NCBI GenBank assembly: GCA_030680175.1
Contig: JAUXWO010000123.1
Coordinates: 132,328-167,666 of the forward strand
DNA from: Vicinamibacterales bacterium
GTDB taxonomy: Bacteria > Acidobacteriota > Vicinamibacteria > Vicinamibacterales > UBA2999
DNA length: 35,339 bases
Reading direction: 5' to 3'
Shown here: piece after piece, positions 18,098-30,240 of the stretch
Layout: every line of letters starts with the position of its first letter
Position numbering within the stretch: position 1 is the first letter of the stretch
Position numbers and translations under genes: made by a program
Notes under the pieces: generated by a model
The model's database searches: none
What the model saw: the letters and a program-made list of their open reading frames with translations, nothing else
What the model was told of the DNA's origin: nothing

Positions 18098-18386
18098 AGA
18101 TCTGGTGGTCTCGTGATGTGGTGATGTGGTGATCTGATGCGCGATGTGGAGATCCGCAGATGTAGCTTCTGATCTTCTGATCTGCGGATGTGCGGCTGGC
18201 CGCCACCCTCGACGCCAGCGCTCAAGCCTGCGCTTACACCGGCACATCAGCCAGATCAACAGATCGACAGGTCAACAGATCAACAGATCAACAGATCAAC
18301 AGATCAGCAGTTCAGCAGATACATCTGCAGATCTCCACATCGCGCATCAGATCACCACATCACCACATCACGAGATCAGCAGATAT
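18098..18386. repeat. GATC-rich long-inverted-repeat element, copy 2
   Basis: 289 bp with the best-preserved arms: 18098-18163 and 18321-18386 are reverse complements over 66 bp with about four mismatches. The centre holds a unique GC-rich core (about 18185-18240), GGCACATCAGCC at 18241-18252, and eight tandem octamers of the AGATCAAC type at 18253-18316. I count about 14 GATC sites in the element. The right arm contains the stop codon of the CDF transporter gene. Confidence 0.85.
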
Positions 18387-23403: not shown

Positions 23404-23750
23404 GTATCTGGTGATCTCGTGATGTGGTGATCTGACGATCGGATGTGCAAATGTAAGATCTCACATCTATCTTCTGATCTTGTGATCTATCTCGAACTGG
23501 CGATCTGGCGATCTGGCGATCTGCCGGGTCGGCGGGTCCGTGCACTGTGGCGGACTTCCGAGACTCGGTCTCCCTGGCGCCACCAGCCCCGGGCCCTGGG
23601 GACGCGGCTCGGGGCGCTGGCTGGTTCGCTCGCCAGATGGCACGATCATGAGATAGATTCCCACATCACCAGATCACCACATCAGATCCTGCACATCCTC
23701 AGATCACCACATCAGATCACCACGTCACCACGTCAAGAGATCACCAGATG
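23404..23750. repeat. GATC-rich long-inverted-repeat element, copy 3
   Basis: About 347 bp between two divergent start codons. The left end (TATCTGGTGATCTCGTGATG) and right end (CGTCAAGAGATCACCAGATG) are imperfect reverse complements. Both arms hold many GTGATCT/AGATCAC words. The interior CTTCTGATCT near 23472 is shared with copies 1 and 2. The core (about 23525-23630) is longer and different in sequence. The right arm runs into the ATG at 23748, and the left arm begins about 5 bp from the ATG at 23399. Confidence 0.75.
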
Positions 23751-25415
23751 CGCCATATCTATCTATTCGTCTCGATCTTCGCTGCGGCGTGCAGCCCCGC
23801 GCCGGCAGAGTATGACGTTCTGATCAGGAATGGCCTTGTGTACGACGGGACGGGGGCGCCGCCGGTGGCCGCGAGCGTGGCCATCACCGGCGACCGCATC
23901 GTGGCCGTGGGGGCGCTCGAGGGCGCGCGCGGGCGCACCGAGGTAAATGCCGCCGGCCAGGCCGTCGCGCCCGGCTTCATCAACATGTTGAGCTGGGCGG
24001 ACCGGTCGCTGCTTGTCGATGGCCGCTCGCAGAGCGGCATCCGGCAGGGCGTCACGCTCGAGATCTTCGGCGAGGGCTGGTCGATGGGCCCGCTCAACCC
24101 CGCGATGAAGGCCGAACTCGTGGCCGACCAGGGCGACCTGAAGTTCGACGTGCCGTGGACGAGCCTCGGCGGCTACCTCGAGCACCTGGAGACGAAGGGC
24201 GTCTCCACGAACGTGGCCTCGTTCGTCGGCGCGACGACGGTGCGGATTCACGAGGTGGGGTACGACGACCGTGAGCCCACGCCGGAGGAACTGGCGCGCA
24301 TGCAGGATCTCGTGCGCCAGGCGATGCGCGAGGGGGCGCTGGGCGTCGGGTCGTCGCTCATCTATGCGCCGGCCTTCTACGCGAAGACGCCGGAGCTCAT
24401 CGCGCTCACGCGTGCCGCGGCCGAATCCGGCGGGATGTACATCTCCCACATCCGCAGCGAAGGCGCGCGGCTGCTCGAGTCGATCGACGAGCTCATCACG
24501 ATCGCCCGCGAGGCGAACGTCCCCGCCGAGATCTACCACCTGAAGGCCGCCGGCCGCGAGCACTGGGGCAAGATCGACGCGGCGATTGCGAAGATCGAGG
24601 CGGCGCGCGCCGAGGGCCTGCGCATCACCGCCGACATGTACACGTACGAGGCCGGCGCCACCGGGCTCGACGCGACGATGCCGCCGTGGGTGCAGGAGGG
24701 CGGGGACGCGGCGTGGATCGAACGGTTGAAGGACCCGGCGATTCGCGCGCGCCTGCGCCGCGAGATGACGACGCCCACCGACCAGTGGGAGAACTTCTTC
24801 GTGGGCGCCGGGCCCGAAGGCATGATCCTCGTCGGCTTCCGCAACGACGCGCTGAAGCCGCTCACGGGCAAGACGCTCGCCGAGGTGGCGGCCATGCGCG
24901 GCACCTCGCCCGCGGACACGGCGATGGACCTGGTGATCGAGGACGGCAGCCGCGTGGGCACGGTCTTCTTCCTGATGTCGGAGGAGAACGTCTCGCGCCA
25001 GCTGCGCCTGCCGTGGGTGAGCCTCGGATCGGATGCCGGCTCGCTCGCGCCGGAAGGCGCCTTCCTCGGATCGAATCCGCACCCGCGCGCCTACGGCAAC
25101 TTCGCGCGGTGGCTCGGCAAGTACGTCCGCGACGAGCGGCTCGTCACGCTCGAGGAGGGCATCCGCCGCATGACGTCGCTGCCCGCGGCGAACCTCGGCC
25201 TGGCCGGGCGCGGCCGCCTGGTTGCGGGCCAGATGGCCGACATCGTCGTCTTCGACCCGGCGACGATTCGCGACCACGCGACGTTCGACAAGCCGCACCA
25301 GTACTCGACCGGGGTGTCACATGTCTTCGTCAATGGCGTGGCGGTGCTGCGCGACGGCGAGCACACCGGCGCCACCCCGGGACGCGTGGTGCGGGGACCG
25401 GGATACACGCCGTAG
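23748..25415 (+). CDS. D-aminoacylase-like amidohydrolase, lipoprotein
   Basis: 555 residues with a lipoprotein signal (IFAAAC, Cys15). The fold signatures of N-acyl-D-amino-acid deacylases are present: VLIRNGLVYDGTG at the start, YISHIRSEG (His234), IYHLKAAG (His264), LGSDAG (Asp428) and a closing MADIVVFDP. The metal-binding HxH expected after PGFID is absent: residues 76-85 read GFINMLSWAD. The position of the conserved Cys of D-aminoacylase lies in GEGWSMGP, without Cys. It is therefore a divergent clade that may bind a single metal through the later His and Asp residues. The ATG is the last triplet of repeat copy 3, and no ribosome-binding site is evident. Confidence 0.88.
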   Translation: MRHIYLFVSIFAAACSPAPAEYDVLIRNGLVYDGTGAPPVAASVAITGDRIVAVGALEGARGRTEVNAAGQAVAPGFINMLSWADRSLLVDGRSQSGIRQGVTLEIFGEGWSMGPLNPAMKAELVADQGDLKFDVPWTSLGGYLEHLETKGVSTNVASFVGATTVRIHEVGYDDREPTPEELARMQDLVRQAMREGALGVGSSLIYAPAFYAKTPELIALTRAAAESGGMYISHIRSEGARLLESIDELITIAREANVPAEIYHLKAAGREHWGKIDAAIAKIEAARAEGLRITADMYTYEAGATGLDATMPPWVQEGGDAAWIERLKDPAIRARLRREMTTPTDQWENFFVGAGPEGMILVGFRNDALKPLTGKTLAEVAAMRGTSPADTAMDLVIEDGSRVGTVFFLMSEENVSRQLRLPWVSLGSDAGSLAPEGAFLGSNPHPRAYGNFARWLGKYVRDERLVTLEEGIRRMTSLPAANLGLAGRGRLVAGQMADIVVFDPATIRDHATFDKPHQYSTGVSHVFVNGVAVLRDGEHTGATPGRVVRGPGYTP

Positions 25416-25430
25416 GCGCCCGGCTTCACG

Positions 25431-25492
25431 CTGCCGGCTCTCGGCTTTCGGCTTCCAGCTGTCGGCTTTCGGCTCCCGGCTCCCGGGGATCA
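25431..25492. repeat. CGGCTTTCGG-type array, left half
   Basis: Words CGGCTCTCGG, CGGCTTTCGG and CGGCTCCCGG fill the spacer right after the amidohydrolase stop. They are the reverse complement of the CCGAAAGCCG words at 25863-25968, so the small gene at 25490-25795 is bracketed by facing arrays. The array ends at the stop codon of that gene. Confidence 0.6.
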
Positions 25493-25795
25493 GCTGTCGA
25501 AGGACTGCCGCAGCCGCTCGATCTTCGCGTCACGCTCGTCGTGGAGCTTCTGCACGTCCCGGCGGAACTGCTCGTCGATCGGCTGACGCTCGCCCGGATC
25601 CCAGATGCCGGCGGTCGCCGCCTTGTGCATGATCTCGCGCTCGGCCACCCGCGCCGCGTACACCCGACGCACCTCGGCCACGTCGGCCTTCTGCGCGTCG
25701 GTCACATGGCGTTCCTCGATGCCGGCGTCGGCATCCTGTTGGCGGAGCCGAGCCATCGCCACTTCGTAGGCGCTCTTCGGCGCTTCATCAGTCAT
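25490..25795 (-). CDS. Small charged helical protein of unknown function
   Basis: 101 residues, MTDEAPKSAYEVAMARLRQQ at the start and ERDAKIERLRQSFDS at the end. It is rich in Ala, Arg, Glu, Asp and Gln with no cysteine, signal or membrane segment, and is probably an extended helix or coiled coil. I do not recognise a named family, but codon use is normal and the opposite frames are poor. It stands alone between two facing low-complexity arrays. Confidence 0.7.
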   Translation of the reverse strand: MTDEAPKSAYEVAMARLRQQDADAGIEERHVTDAQKADVAEVRRVYAARVAEREIMHKAATAGIWDPGERQPIDEQFRRDVQKLHDERDAKIERLRQSFDS

Positions 25796-25862
25796 GACTT
25801 CATCATAGCGGGCAGCGGGCGGCGAAATACGAAATGCAGCGCAGAGGGCAAAAGGCAGGATG

Positions 25863-25968
25863 AAGCCGAAAGCCGAAAGCCGATCGCCGAAAGCCGATCG
25901 CCGAAAGCCGATCGCTGAAAGCCGATCGCTGAGAGCCGATCGCTGAAAGCCGACAGCCGGCTACCGAT
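25863..25968. repeat. CCGAAAGCCGATCG array, right half
   Basis: About eight units of GCCGAAAGCCGATCGC and variants (GCTGAAAG, GCTGAGAG), with a basic period of 7-8 bp doubled to about 15-16 bp and several CGATCG palindromes. It ends about 20 bp before the globin start codon. Immediately to its left (25816-25860) are ATACGAAATGC/GGCAAAAGG words like those at 12281. Confidence 0.7.
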
Positions 25969-25987
25969 CCCCGTCTATGATCGGAGT

Positions 25988-26374
25988 ATGCCTCCCCTGA
26001 CCGACGACACCGTGTACGAGCGGATTGGCGAAGAGGGCTTCGCGCGGCTCGTGCGCGGGTTCTATGCGCAGGTGCCGGGCGACGATCTGCTCGGCCCGAT
26101 GTACCCGGCGCACGACCTCGAGGGCGCCGAGGTGCGGCTGCGCGATTTCCTGGTGGGCCGCTTTGGCGGGCCGCCGCGCTACATCGAGGAGCGCGGGCAC
26201 CCGCGCCTGCGGATGCGGCACATGCCGTTTGCCATCGACCTTGCGGCGCGCGATCGCTGGATGCAGCTGATGACCCGGGCCCTCGACGAGGCCGCGCTGC
26301 CCGAGGACGTGACGGCCCTGCTCCGTGAGTTCTTCGATGGCGTCGCGACGTTCATGGTCAATCGCGGCGGCTGA
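25988..26374 (+). CDS. Group II truncated hemoglobin
   Basis: 128 residues, the usual length for TrHb2/HbO globins. GEEGFARLVRGFYAQV (Tyr26 at B10) begins the fold. The proximal histidine is His78 in LRMRHMPFAID, a strongly conserved TrHb2 motif, and Trp90 in RDRWMQLM is the group-II G8 tryptophan. Such proteins bind O2 and NO and are linked to oxidative or nitrosative stress handling. The gene is monocistronic, with a hairpin shortly after it. Confidence 0.94.
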   Translation: MPPLTDDTVYERIGEEGFARLVRGFYAQVPGDDLLGPMYPAHDLEGAEVRLRDFLVGRFGGPPRYIEERGHPRLRMRHMPFAIDLAARDRWMQLMTRALDEAALPEDVTALLREFFDGVATFMVNRGG

Positions 26375-26408
26375 CCGTCCTGCGGTCGCGCCGATCAGCC
26401 GAGGGACG

Positions 26409-26455
26409 TGACCGCCTCGTCATGGTCTCGCGTACTCGTAATGACGGGGCGGTCA
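26409..26455. terminator. Bidirectional hairpin between convergent genes
   Basis: 26409-26423 and 26441-26455 form a 15-bp stem with one G-T pair and a 17-nt loop. The right arm includes the stop codon of the leftward gene at 26453. There is no T tract, so it may block transcription or protect the 3' end rather than act as a classical intrinsic terminator. Confidence 0.6.
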
Positions 26456-26995
26456 GGCGGCCGTGCCGGTGGCCTTGCGAATGAACAGGACGTTGCGGCC
26501 GTTGCGCCGGGTGTAGGTCACCTCGTCCATCAGGGTGCGGACCAGATGCACGCCGAGGCCGCCGATCCGGCATGCGTGCCGTGCGGGGCGCGTGTATCGC
26601 GATGGTTCGATCGGTGTCCGGACCGGCGCGGTGACCGCGTCCGCCCAGCCCCAGGCGGCGTCGAACCGGGCCTGCGCGCCGGCGGGGTGGTCGTGCAGTT
26701 CGAGGCGAAAAGCCGTCGAGCTCAGCGTGAGGCTGCCTCCGAGGGCGGCCGCGTCCACGGTCTCGCCCCGGCGGACGAGCCGGGTGTACGCGTCGGTCTT
26801 CGAGATGCCCTCCCGAATCGGCGCACGGAGCTGCGGCAGCCGCGCCTGCAGGTACGGCCAGAGTCCCTCGCCCGCCTCCGCGGCGTAGCGGCGCCAGTCG
26901 TCCACGTGCGGTTCGTCGGCCAGGGGGAAGTGGACGGCGGTGAGCGAAGAGGCCACGAAAGGACTGTCGCAGTAGGCGAGGACCTCGTCGGCCAC
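26453..26995 (-). CDS. Protein with RsbW-like HATPase C-terminus and unknown N-terminus
   Basis: 180 residues, probably from a GTG start at 26995. The last ~35 residues, RIGGLGVHLVRTLMDEVTY and then RNGRNVLFIRK, closely follow the G2-box end of anti-sigma-factor/serine-kinase ATPases (RsbW/SpoIIAB type). The preceding FRLELHDHPAGAQ may be the G1 strand, but the DxGxPF signature is degraded. I see no N-box (E-x-x-x-N), so kinase activity is doubtful. The first ~95 residues (EPHVDDWRRYAAEAGEGLW, REGISKTDAYTRLVRRGE) are not recognised. It may be a decayed or divergent ATP-binding switch protein. No sigma or STAS partner is adjacent. Confidence 0.6.
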   Translation of the reverse strand: MADEVLAYCDSPFVASSLTAVHFPLADEPHVDDWRRYAAEAGEGLWPYLQARLPQLRAPIREGISKTDAYTRLVRRGETVDAAALGGSLTLSSTAFRLELHDHPAGAQARFDAAWGWADAVTAPVRTPIEPSRYTRPARHACRIGGLGVHLVRTLMDEVTYTRRNGRNVLFIRKATGTAA

Positions 26996-27102
26996 GGCCC
27001 CATGGCCGCCACAGGCGGGCGACGGCGGCGAGTCGTTGTTCGCGGGGAAGTGGCGTCACCGGATCCAGGCCGACATCGTGGGGGCCGTTTCGCTGGAAGA
27101 TA

Positions 27103-27131
27103 TTGACACAGCGTCGGTTGTCCTGCATCAT
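27103..27131 (+). promoter_or_regulatory. Candidate sigma-70 promoter for the leader at 27140
   Basis: TTGACA at 27103-27108, a 17-bp spacer, then CATCAT at 27126-27131 (four of six -10 positions). It points rightwards into a structured leader. Confidence 0.45.
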
Positions 27132-27137
27132 CTGTGG

Positions 27138-27306
27138 CGGATCGGGGGGCGGACAGCCCCCCGGCGCGTGGAGAACACGTGCAAAGAAATACAAAGGATT
27201 ACAACGAGGCGGTTGGGGCGTGTCGTATTCTCGAAAGCGTAACGACAGAGGGGAAGCACCGGGTGGGGTGTCTCCAGTGAGCCGCAGCACCCCGCCCGGG
27301 TTTTTT
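27138..27306 (+). ncRNA. Structured leader or small RNA ending in a terminator
   Basis: From the predicted start near 27138 the transcript would hold a GGGGGGC-GGACA-GCCCCCC hairpin at about 27149-27166 and a CGTG-GAGAA-CACG hairpin at 27167-27180. An A-rich single-stranded stretch follows, and the RNA ends in the strong terminator at 27259-27306. No open frame of quality is present. It could be an independent small RNA of about 170 nt or an attenuating 5' leader of the zinc-ribbon gene at 27367. It matches no riboswitch consensus I can recall. Confidence 0.4.
27259..27306 (+). terminator. Strong intrinsic terminator upstream of the Tat zinc-ribbon gene
   Basis: CCGGGTGGGGTG (27259-27270) pairs with CACCCCGCCCGG (27288-27299) over 12 bp with one G-T pair, followed by six T at 27301-27306. 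It lies 60 bp before the start codon at 27367, so it ends an upstream RNA or controls read-through. Confidence 0.8.
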
Positions 27307-27366
27307 CGCGCCGCACCAGGCGGCACCGAGTCGAGACCATTCGTGACCACTGAGACAAGAGGGACC

Positions 27367-27666
27367 ATGTTCGAGACCACTGGAAAGAACGTCGATCGCC
27401 GGAGCTTCCTCCGCGGGTCCGCGCTGTTTGCCGCCGCTCTCGGCATGACCGTCGTGCCCGGCATTGCCGGCGCGCAGCAGCCCCAGCAGGAGCCGAAGAA
27501 GGAAGAGAAGCCGAAGGATCCGTTCGCTCCCGAAGAGAAGAAGGACGGCGTCCTGGTGGATGCCGACGGCCGCGAGTACCGCGTCTGTCCGCAGTGCGCC
27601 TACAACATGTACAAGCAGGGCCGCATGTGGTTCTGTGAGAACTGCGGCTACAGCTACGTCGAGTAG
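27367..27666 (+). CDS. Small Tat-exported zinc-ribbon (rubredoxin-like) protein
   Basis: 99 residues. The twin-arginine signal DRRSFLRGS (Arg11, Arg12) is followed by a hydrophobic run and AGAQ cleavage near residue 37. A charged Lys/Glu/Pro linker (about 40-60) leads to a four-cysteine ribbon: CPQC (Cys74, Cys77) and CENCG (Cys90, Cys93). The pattern fits zinc or a rubredoxin-like iron site folded before export. I know no assigned function. A GAGGGACC element precedes the ATG. The gene is framed by the terminator at 27259 and another at 27692, so it is a self-contained unit. Confidence 0.8.
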   Translation: MFETTGKNVDRRSFLRGSALFAAALGMTVVPGIAGAQQPQQEPKKEEKPKDPFAPEEKKDGVLVDADGREYRVCPQCAYNMYKQGRMWFCENCGYSYVE

Positions 27667-27691
27667 CGCGCCCCCGTTCTGAGGTAGATTG

Positions 27692-27724
27692 AACGCCCGG
27701 CTCCCGCAAGGGGGCCGGGCGTTT
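27692..27724 (+). terminator. Rho-independent terminator after the zinc-ribbon gene
   Basis: AACGCCCGG at 27692-27700 pairs with CCGGGCGTT at 27715-27723, with additional pairing of CTCCC/GGGGG toward the loop. It ends in TTT and lies 25 bp after the stop codon. Confidence 0.7.
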
Positions 27725-27734
27725 CGCGTTTGCG

Positions 27735-27792
27735 GCTGCGAACGGCCAACAGCGAATTGCGAACAGCGAACAGCGAATAGCGAACAGCGAAT
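27735..27792. repeat. GCGAACA heptamer array abutting the SDR start
   Basis: CGAACGG, CAACAG, CGAATTG, CGAACAG, CGAACAG, CGAATAG, CGAACAG and CGAAT follow each other with a 7-bp period up to the ATG at 27793. The same motif stands before the ATG at 481. Confidence 0.7.
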
Positions 27793-28620
27793 ATGTCCCT
27801 GCACGGCAAGACCCTCTTCATCACCGGCGCCAGCCGCGGAATCGGCAAGGCCATCGCCCTGCGCGCCGCCGCCGACGGCGCCAATATCGTCATCGCCGCC
27901 AAGACGGTGGTGCCGCACCCGAAGCTCCCCGGCACCATCTACACGGCCGCCGAGGAGGTGGTCGCGGCGGGGGGGCAGGCGCTGGCCGTCCGCATGGACG
28001 TGCGCGACGAGGAGGCGGTGGCGGCCGGCGTCGCGGCCGCCGTCGAGCGCTTCGGGGGGATCGACATCCTCGTGAACAACGCGTCGGCCATCACCCTGAC
28101 CGGCACGCTCGACACCCCGATGAAGCGCTTCGACCTGATGCACGGCGTGAACACGCGCGGCACGTTCCTGTGCTCGCAGCAGGTGCTGCCGCACCTGCGC
28201 CGCGCCGCGAACCCGCACATCCTGAACCTGGCGCCGCCGCTCGACTCGACGCTGCAGGCGCGGTGGTTCGCGCCGCACCTGGCCTACACGATGGCGAAGT
28301 TCGGGATGAGCCTGTGCGTGCTGGGCATGGCGGAGGAGTTCCGCGGCGACGGCGTGGCCGTCAACGCGCTGTGGCCCAGGACGGCGATCGACACCGATGC
28401 CATCAGCCTGATCGCCGGGTCCGAGGGCCGGCGGCGGACCCGGTCGGTCGCCATCATGGCTGACGCGGCGCACTGGATCCTCACGCGCCCCAGCCGCGAA
28501 GTGACCGGCCAGTTCTTCGTGGATGAGGACGCCGTGCGCGCGGCCGGCATCACGGACCTGTCCCGCTACCGGCCGGACGGCGTCGCCGAAGAGGCGCTGA
28601 TGCCGGATTTCTTCGTCTGA
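27793..28620 (+). CDS. Short-chain dehydrogenase/reductase, HSDL2-like
   Basis: 275 residues. The Rossmann NAD(P) motif TGASRGIGKAIA is at 11-22, NNAS at 95-98, and the catalytic YTMAK has Tyr165 and Lys169. The IAAKTVVPHPKLPGTIYTAAEEV stretch and GMAEEFRGDGVAVNALWPRTAI are close to the hydroxysteroid-dehydrogenase-like 2 subgroup, which is linked to lipid or fatty-acid metabolism. The HSDL2 serine in the NISPP position reads NLAPP here (Ala147); Ser152, 13 residues before the Tyr, may serve instead. No SCP2 domain follows. The ATG directly follows a heptamer array, and no Shine-Dalgarno is seen. Confidence 0.92.
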   Translation: MSLHGKTLFITGASRGIGKAIALRAAADGANIVIAAKTVVPHPKLPGTIYTAAEEVVAAGGQALAVRMDVRDEEAVAAGVAAAVERFGGIDILVNNASAITLTGTLDTPMKRFDLMHGVNTRGTFLCSQQVLPHLRRAANPHILNLAPPLDSTLQARWFAPHLAYTMAKFGMSLCVLGMAEEFRGDGVAVNALWPRTAIDTDAISLIAGSEGRRRTRSVAIMADAAHWILTRPSREVTGQFFVDEDAVRAAGITDLSRYRPDGVAEEALMPDFFV

Positions 28621-28815
28621 ACGCCCACCCCGGGACGCACTCCGGGAGGGGGCCTGCCGGCGCCAGCTCTGGAAACAGGCCTGTTTTCGCGGTCGAGGGC
28701 GATTTCGCACGGGCCATTCAAGCTGACGCCCACGGTTGCCGAATGATCAGGCAAGTGTCGTCCGCCCTCCGGGACGTTCCCGGGACGGGGTTGGCGGCGG
28801 GAGCCTGACAGAACC

Positions 28816-30240
<1,425 letters not shown>

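Follow-up and report, generated by a model that had tools for sequence, protein, structure and literature searches.

An RNA of about 66 nt, encoded directly upstream of a gene for an exported four-cysteine protein, is probably a regulatory RNA that has not been described before, because its conservation lies far above that of the flanking sequence. It was found in a 35,339-nt stretch of DNA from a Vicinamibacterales bacterium, referred to here as the window, where it occupies positions 27240–27306 of the plus strand, and it occurs in 14 genomes in all. The reading that we favour, tentatively, is that of a leader RNA, specific to one family, through which transcription of the downstream gene is attenuated, with an independent small RNA as a close competitor.

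Delimitation of the transcription unit

A preliminary description of this region had proposed a small RNA or attenuator of about 170 nt that starts near 27140 behind a TTGACA-type promoter, passes through two GC hairpins and ends in a strong terminator ahead of the gene. Its components are present in the window. The TTGACA-17-CATCAT site is found at 27103–27131 with 10 of 12 matches. No other site of this kind lies in 25000–30000, where shuffled sequences give an expectation of 0.2. Both GC hairpins (27143–27163 and 27164–27182) form in the predicted fold of 27103–27366. This fold has a z-score of −2.95, which 2 of 200 shuffles equal. Likely genes are absent from 26996–27366, as had been noted, and the T-run is separated from the ATG by 60 nt.

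Comparison with relatives, however, outlines a different unit. The segment 27085–27184 is unmatched at E 0.01 in 13 relatives, which takes the TTGACA promoter and the two hairpins out of the unit, whereas 27185–27306 matches the upstream stretches of all 13 relatives that bear the RNA. From these two results we infer a unit of about 66 nt that begins near 27240, instead of one of about 170 nt. When as much as 260 nt ahead of the RNA was scanned, no TTGACA-type promoter was revealed in 12 relatives; in the remaining one (G025) the scan returned a different TTGACA-type site, the second hexamer of which falls on the conserved box described below. The original proposal thus holds as to a conserved, terminator-ended unit in 14 genomes, and was mistaken about promoter, start and length.

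The conserved segment consists of discrete blocks on the plus strand, here described by mean pairwise identity over 14 sequences. The first is a box, ACAAA-GG-ATTACAA (27191–27204), with an identity of 0.85 over 27191–27203, followed by 19 bases at 0.32 and by a −10-like element, TCGTATTCT (27223–27231), at 0.90. The distance between box and −10 element differs by a few bases among genomes, and the intervening sequence is unconserved. Such a pair of conserved elements around a variable, unconserved spacer (27191–27231) has the pattern of a bipartite promoter, which we propose for this locus. The 8 bases 3′ of the −10 element fall back to 0.32 and then change abruptly to near-invariant sequence, which would place the transcription start at about 27238–27242, 7–11 nt past the −10 element. 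Identity within the RNA reaches 0.90 over 27240–27257 and 0.97 over 27258–27268, and is 0.67 over 27269–27284 and 0.71 over 27285–27299. For comparison, the downstream gene has an identity of 0.76 at the third positions of its final 28 codons and of 0.61 at its six fourfold-degenerate sites.

The best-conserved part of the RNA, a near-invariant 5′ strand (27241–27269), comprises a single-stranded lead and most of the 5′ arm of the terminator. A 22-nt sequence, GACAGAGGGGAAGCACCGGGTG, is the same in 12 of the 14 genomes, with one difference in G029 and several in G037. Further downstream, the terminator loop carries a conserved motif, AGCCGC (27280–27285), in which G42, C44, G45 and C46 (numbered in the first sequence of the alignment) are invariant in all 14 sequences and A41 and C43 are at least 90% conserved.

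These blocks bear on two other explanations. The segment could be a DNA-level element at which a transcription factor acts, be it as an operator or as an initial-transcribed sequence, with the terminator merely insulating the gene. The conserved sequence sets in at a point where RNA polymerase would not yet have left the promoter, and the box upstream of the −10 element, of which 0–2 copies per genome occur in 18 genomes, resembles a regulator or sigma-factor site, as this explanation would have it. Nevertheless, we consider it improbable, since no dyad or direct repeat is visible by eye in 27241–27269, the conserved loop and the maintained stem pairing are features at the RNA level, and a terminator that only insulated the gene would have no use for an invariant 5′ strand. 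The second explanation assumes a tiny leader open reading frame that starts at the GTG at 27263, behind the ribosome-site-like stretch GAGGGG, and the translation of which controls the terminator. Although almost every copy contains GAGGGG-N9-GTG, the frame has 5–6 codons in seven of the 14 and 20–137 in the other seven, and insertions and deletions in the loop break it. A leader-peptide attenuator was rejected, as the variable length over the 14 copies leaves no conserved short reading frame, and control by such a peptide appears very improbable.

The terminator and the one-sided drift of its stem

The terminator hairpin (27259–27299) pairs 27259–27270 with 27288–27299 in a 12-bp stem, closes over a 17-nt loop (27271–27287) and is followed by a U-run encoded by T6 at 27301–27306. 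As the preliminary description had stated, it is strong, and nothing in the window matches it: on either strand, it is the sole stem of at least 10 pairs, wobble pairs allowed, with a loop of 3–20 nt and T6. An equally strong terminator was obtained in none of 300 dinucleotide shuffles, for which the plus strand was scanned. A generic terminator scan that allowed only loops of 3–8 nt missed 27259–27306.

Lack of hairpin conservation, named in the preliminary description as evidence against the unit, is seen for the two upstream hairpins. The terminator hairpin, in contrast, is retained in the relatives, with 99.3% of the cells of an 11-pair stem core paired in the 14 sequences. Thirteen cells have a change on the 3′ side alone, which yields a wobble pair, and two are changed on both sides; no cell has a substitution on the 5′ side alone. 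One cell is unpaired owing to its 3′ base, and in G042 the 5′ arm lacks one base. In pairing, double changes and covariation score, 13 of 500 shuffles did as well as the alignment, and in further pair types 168 of 500 did so, the power to detect covariation being small with 14 sequences and an almost invariant 5′ half. Taken together, the alignment indicates a hairpin that is preserved through evolution. Because nearly all stem changes lie on the 3′ arm, the 5′ arm is probably held by something besides the hairpin, and the 5′ strand probably has a second, sequence-specific job.

Distribution of the RNA

A DNA search with 27080–27400 against 99 genomes (the own genome and 98 relatives) matched 88 of them at E ≤1, mostly over short segments and near chance level. 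At E ≤1e-4, 13 genomes other than the own one were matched, and each of these matches adjoins an orthologue of the Tat gene. The 31 additional DNA matches in the own genome are short and all have E ≥0.1, so that no second copy of the RNA was detected there by this search.

The 14 RNA sequences were used to build a covariance model, R1, which matched 14 of 162 genomes of the order at E 0.01, once each and with E ≤5e-13. The same 14 genomes were matched at E 0.001 among 193 genomes of the class, in a search with stricter filters that lose some weak matches. No RNA was found away from the Tat gene in the order and class genomes, and none in the 138 genomes of the order that do not have this gene. 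Among 396 genomes of the phylum, 19 were matched at E 0.01, of which six were strong matches, all known members of the family, and 13 were weak (24–31.5 bits). Four of the weak matches (L085–L088) were inspected and rejected as copies of the RNA. The match in L085 is a symmetric terminator, those in L086 and L087 are GC-rich hairpins that have parts of the stem and loop in common with the RNA, and L088 has no terminator. No Tat four-cysteine gene was present within 1.8–3.1 kb of DNA around these four, which we judge to be unrelated to the RNA.

The downstream gene and its neighbourhood

The gene downstream of the RNA (P0001; 27367–27666, plus strand) encodes a small Tat-type exported protein with two cysteine pairs, CPQC and CENC. 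Its Tat signal scores above the NCBIfam cut-off for TIGR01409 and below the Pfam cut-off for PF10518. The earlier designation as an exported four-cysteine protein is borne out; all matches to zinc-ribbon domains lie below cut-off. Ten named database records contain the protein, all of them marked as metagenome assemblies; seven are titled Acidobacteria, Acidobacteriota or Acidobacterium, and the others Sulfopaludibacter, Cyanobacteria and Acidimicrobiia.

Orthologues of the gene occur in 24 of the 162 order genomes, 21 in the own family (f1) and three in family f5, and 14 of these 24 genomes contain the RNA. The other ten, which have the gene and no RNA, comprise five of genus g21, one each of g2 (G036) and g10 (G009), and the three of f5. 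In the phylum, a profile of the protein matched 11 of 396 genomes, ten from the own family and one (G506) from another family of the class; neither box nor RNA was visible by eye in the 260 nt upstream of the gene in G506. A tree of the downstream protein, weakly resolved, needs about four changes of RNA presence, at least two of which are forced by its starred branches. The RNA-less genus g21 groups in this tree with the RNA-bearing g22_G021 (support 84/85).

Each of the 14 RNA copies immediately precedes an orthologue of the gene, whereas the farther neighbours vary over these loci, with a downstream SDR gene in four, a globin gene in two and a divergent HATPase gene in three. In the window, the divergent gene (26453–26995, minus strand) has overlapping matches to DUF7005 (residues 3–107) and HATPase_c_2 (residues 29–174). 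Three g2 genomes have a similar frame ahead of the RNA, and in some relatives the upstream neighbours, viewed by eye, are what we take to be succinate dehydrogenase or OsmC-like genes. Arrays of 7–8-base tandem units, apparently intergenic, are also present in the window (27738–27791, 25863–25973, 23406–23727 and 18246–18384), with units such as GCGAACA, AAGCCGA, CGATCTGG and CAGATCAA; the array at 27738–27791 stops just short of the ATG of the SDR gene at 27793.

In G036, the RNA and its −10 element are missing, while the upstream box and TATAGAAT near the gene are kept. This genome apparently represents a natural loss of the RNA. Its locus L044 has the same 200 nt as L071, a named record, which for this reason was aligned and not counted. 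L062–L070 were likewise left out, as their contigs are equal in length to contigs of genomes already in the set.

The promoter box at other loci

An exact pattern of ATTACAA and CGTATYCT gave a single match, at this locus, in nine of 18 genomes and none in the other nine. A stricter pattern had no match in the own genome, because it required GACAAA where the window reads TACAAA. The box alone is also found elsewhere in the 18 genomes. ACAA-N3-WTTACAA, followed at varying distance by CGTATACT, precedes other genes at L115 (G000:C83:5310) and L098 (G107:C208:9754), both of which look by eye like genes for exported proteins or lipoproteins. The occurrence of the box before other exported-looking genes may point to a wider promoter class or regulator.

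Two of the three f5 orthologues (L059 and L061) have a similar box, seen by eye, directly before the gene and no RNA. Since the box there adjoins the gene itself, the comparison suggests that the RNA was inserted between an older promoter and its gene.

Attenuator or independent small RNA

In all 14 loci, a conserved terminator lies between the promoter inferred from conservation and the start codon, the arrangement expected of an attenuator. RNA polymerase would start near 27240 and mostly stop near 27306. The 5′ strand (27241–27269) would be recognised while it emerges by a putative factor, be it a protein, an RNA or a ligand, the binding of which would prevent the 5′ arm from pairing in the hairpin and so let transcription enter the gene. 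The terminated RNA of about 66 nt may have a role of its own too, like GraL of Escherichia coli. We favour attenuation, at a confidence that stops short of a firm assignment, because the RNA always adjoins the gene while farther neighbours differ, because the promoter box directly precedes the gene in f5, where the RNA is lacking, and because the one-sided drift of the stem implies that the 5′ arm is probably held by a constraint other than the hairpin.

The spacing between terminator and gene bears on the dependence on read-through. In g24_G023 the U-run is only 23 nt from the ATG, and the six carriers outside g2 have no −10 pattern of the form TA...T after the terminator; in these genomes the gene thus seems to depend on read-through. 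Weaker −10 elements may be present elsewhere, for example GTATTCG in G030, seen by eye. In L049 (G040), the U-run likewise ends 23 nt before the ATG, with a TATGAT between them that stops 6 nt short of the start codon, so that the gene there may be read as a leaderless mRNA.

Some observations count against attenuation. Ten of the 24 genomes have the gene and lack the RNA, and all eight g2 carriers have a second −10 element between terminator and gene, TATAAT in seven and TATGAT in one, so that the gene there can probably be transcribed without read-through. This element begins 10–13 nt past the U-run in seven genomes and 50 nt past it in one. It is the g2 arrangement that makes a trans-acting small RNA a close rival, namely an independent RNA with its own promoter and terminator and a single-stranded 5′ seed, with the Tat gene either separate or co-regulated. 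The inferred promoter, the short length and the terminator with its U-run fit an Hfq-type small RNA, and Hfq is encoded by every one of the 14 carriers. A search of 20 genomes found it in 19, the exception being G107 of f5, and those with Hfq include five genomes of the family in which the gene stands without the RNA. In RybB and MicA the seed is the 5′ end of the small RNA, and in the present RNA the unpaired 5′ end is among the best-conserved parts; the AGCCGC motif of the loop is conserved as well.

A search for targets did not add to the case for a trans-acting RNA. Complements of the 5′ strand (14 nt, at most one mismatch) outside the RNA numbered seven in the 14 genomes, versus 13 for a reversed-pattern control, and no gene has such a site at its start in more than one genome. 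One complement (L135, in G025) lies a few tens of bases ahead of a start codon, in this genome only. That no copy was found apart from the Tat gene in the order and class genomes also counts against a trans-acting RNA. We regard the trans-acting small RNA as a real possibility, with perhaps a minority share of the probability.

As to how the terminator would be kept open under attenuation, an intramolecular antiterminator was considered and found unsupported, which counts against attenuation too. A fold of the 5′ part with the loop has z-scores of −0.8 to 1.4 in 13 of the 14 sequences, no better than shuffles, and −2.27 in one. The candidate pairs are 85.6% paired, compared with 37–68.5% when slid by 1–3 columns, but they show no excess over shuffled partners (85.9%), no double change and no covariation. 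Nor did the 5′ strand pair consistently with the beginning of the gene itself (z −1.8 to 1.1).

Relation to known RNAs

That the RNA is new to Rfam, as had been supposed, agrees with our searches: Rfam 15 gave no match at the gathering score in the whole window, and nothing convincing in 26996–27366 at E ≤10. The top weak match is asX1 (RF02235), a small RNA of Xanthomonadaceae, with 18.4 bits and E 1.5 against a cut-off of 70. Both RNAs have a GC-rich hairpin and a U-run at the end; membership was rejected, as the score is far under the cut-off and comes chiefly from the terminator stem. Acido-1 (RF01686) and Acido-Lenti-1 (RF01687), presented as computational RNA candidates of Acidobacteria in the section of the survey that lists them (PMC2864571), have no match in the window at the gathering score or in 26996–27366 at E ≤10. 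No prior description of the RNA of about 66 nt was found in the open-access PMC literature.

Two characterised systems resemble it in design. The passages on GraL in the E. coli study describe a short RNA encoded in the greA leader that ends in an intrinsic terminator and acts in cis and in trans (PMC6829880). The present RNA is likewise a short leader RNA with an intrinsic terminator, whereas gene, phylum and promoters differ; the likeness is one of design, with no sequence relation claimed, and both functions here are putative. In leaders of the BglG/SacY type, for example 5′nagY, a conserved RAT extends into the base of a terminator that is itself less conserved, according to the part of the study devoted to them (PMC9981650). 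The near-invariant 5′ strand that runs into the 5′ arm of the terminator is comparable, but the RAT forms an antiterminator hairpin, and the 5′ part of the present RNA does not outdo shuffles in its folding in 13 of 14 sequences. Premature terminators have been surveyed, and the survey depicts, in its treatment of leaders, sensing structures that are diverse, fast-evolving and mostly uncharacterised (PMC2965389). Compared with such leaders, the present RNA looks unusually well conserved within its family.

A dual role as in GraL would reconcile the attenuator and small-RNA readings. In its boldest form, the RNA would found a new, dual-function class of regulators in Acidobacteriota, in which a dedicated factor binds the 29-nt 5′ strand and controls closure of the terminator. 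Transcription from a single promoter would then end in a stable trans-acting RNA of about 66 nt or go on to give the mRNA of the exported zinc-ribbon-like protein. We think this unlikely as a whole, although not far-fetched.

Few RNA regulators have been annotated in Acidobacteria; the table of a 2022 review assigns four distinct annotated sRNAs to the phylum (PMC9029176). The present work adds a well-delimited RNA from 14 genomes of one family. With the inferred promoter, the terminator, the linked gene and relatives that lack the RNA, such as G036 and G009, its function is directly testable, and the one-sided drift of the stem points to a sequence-specific second role of the 5′ strand.
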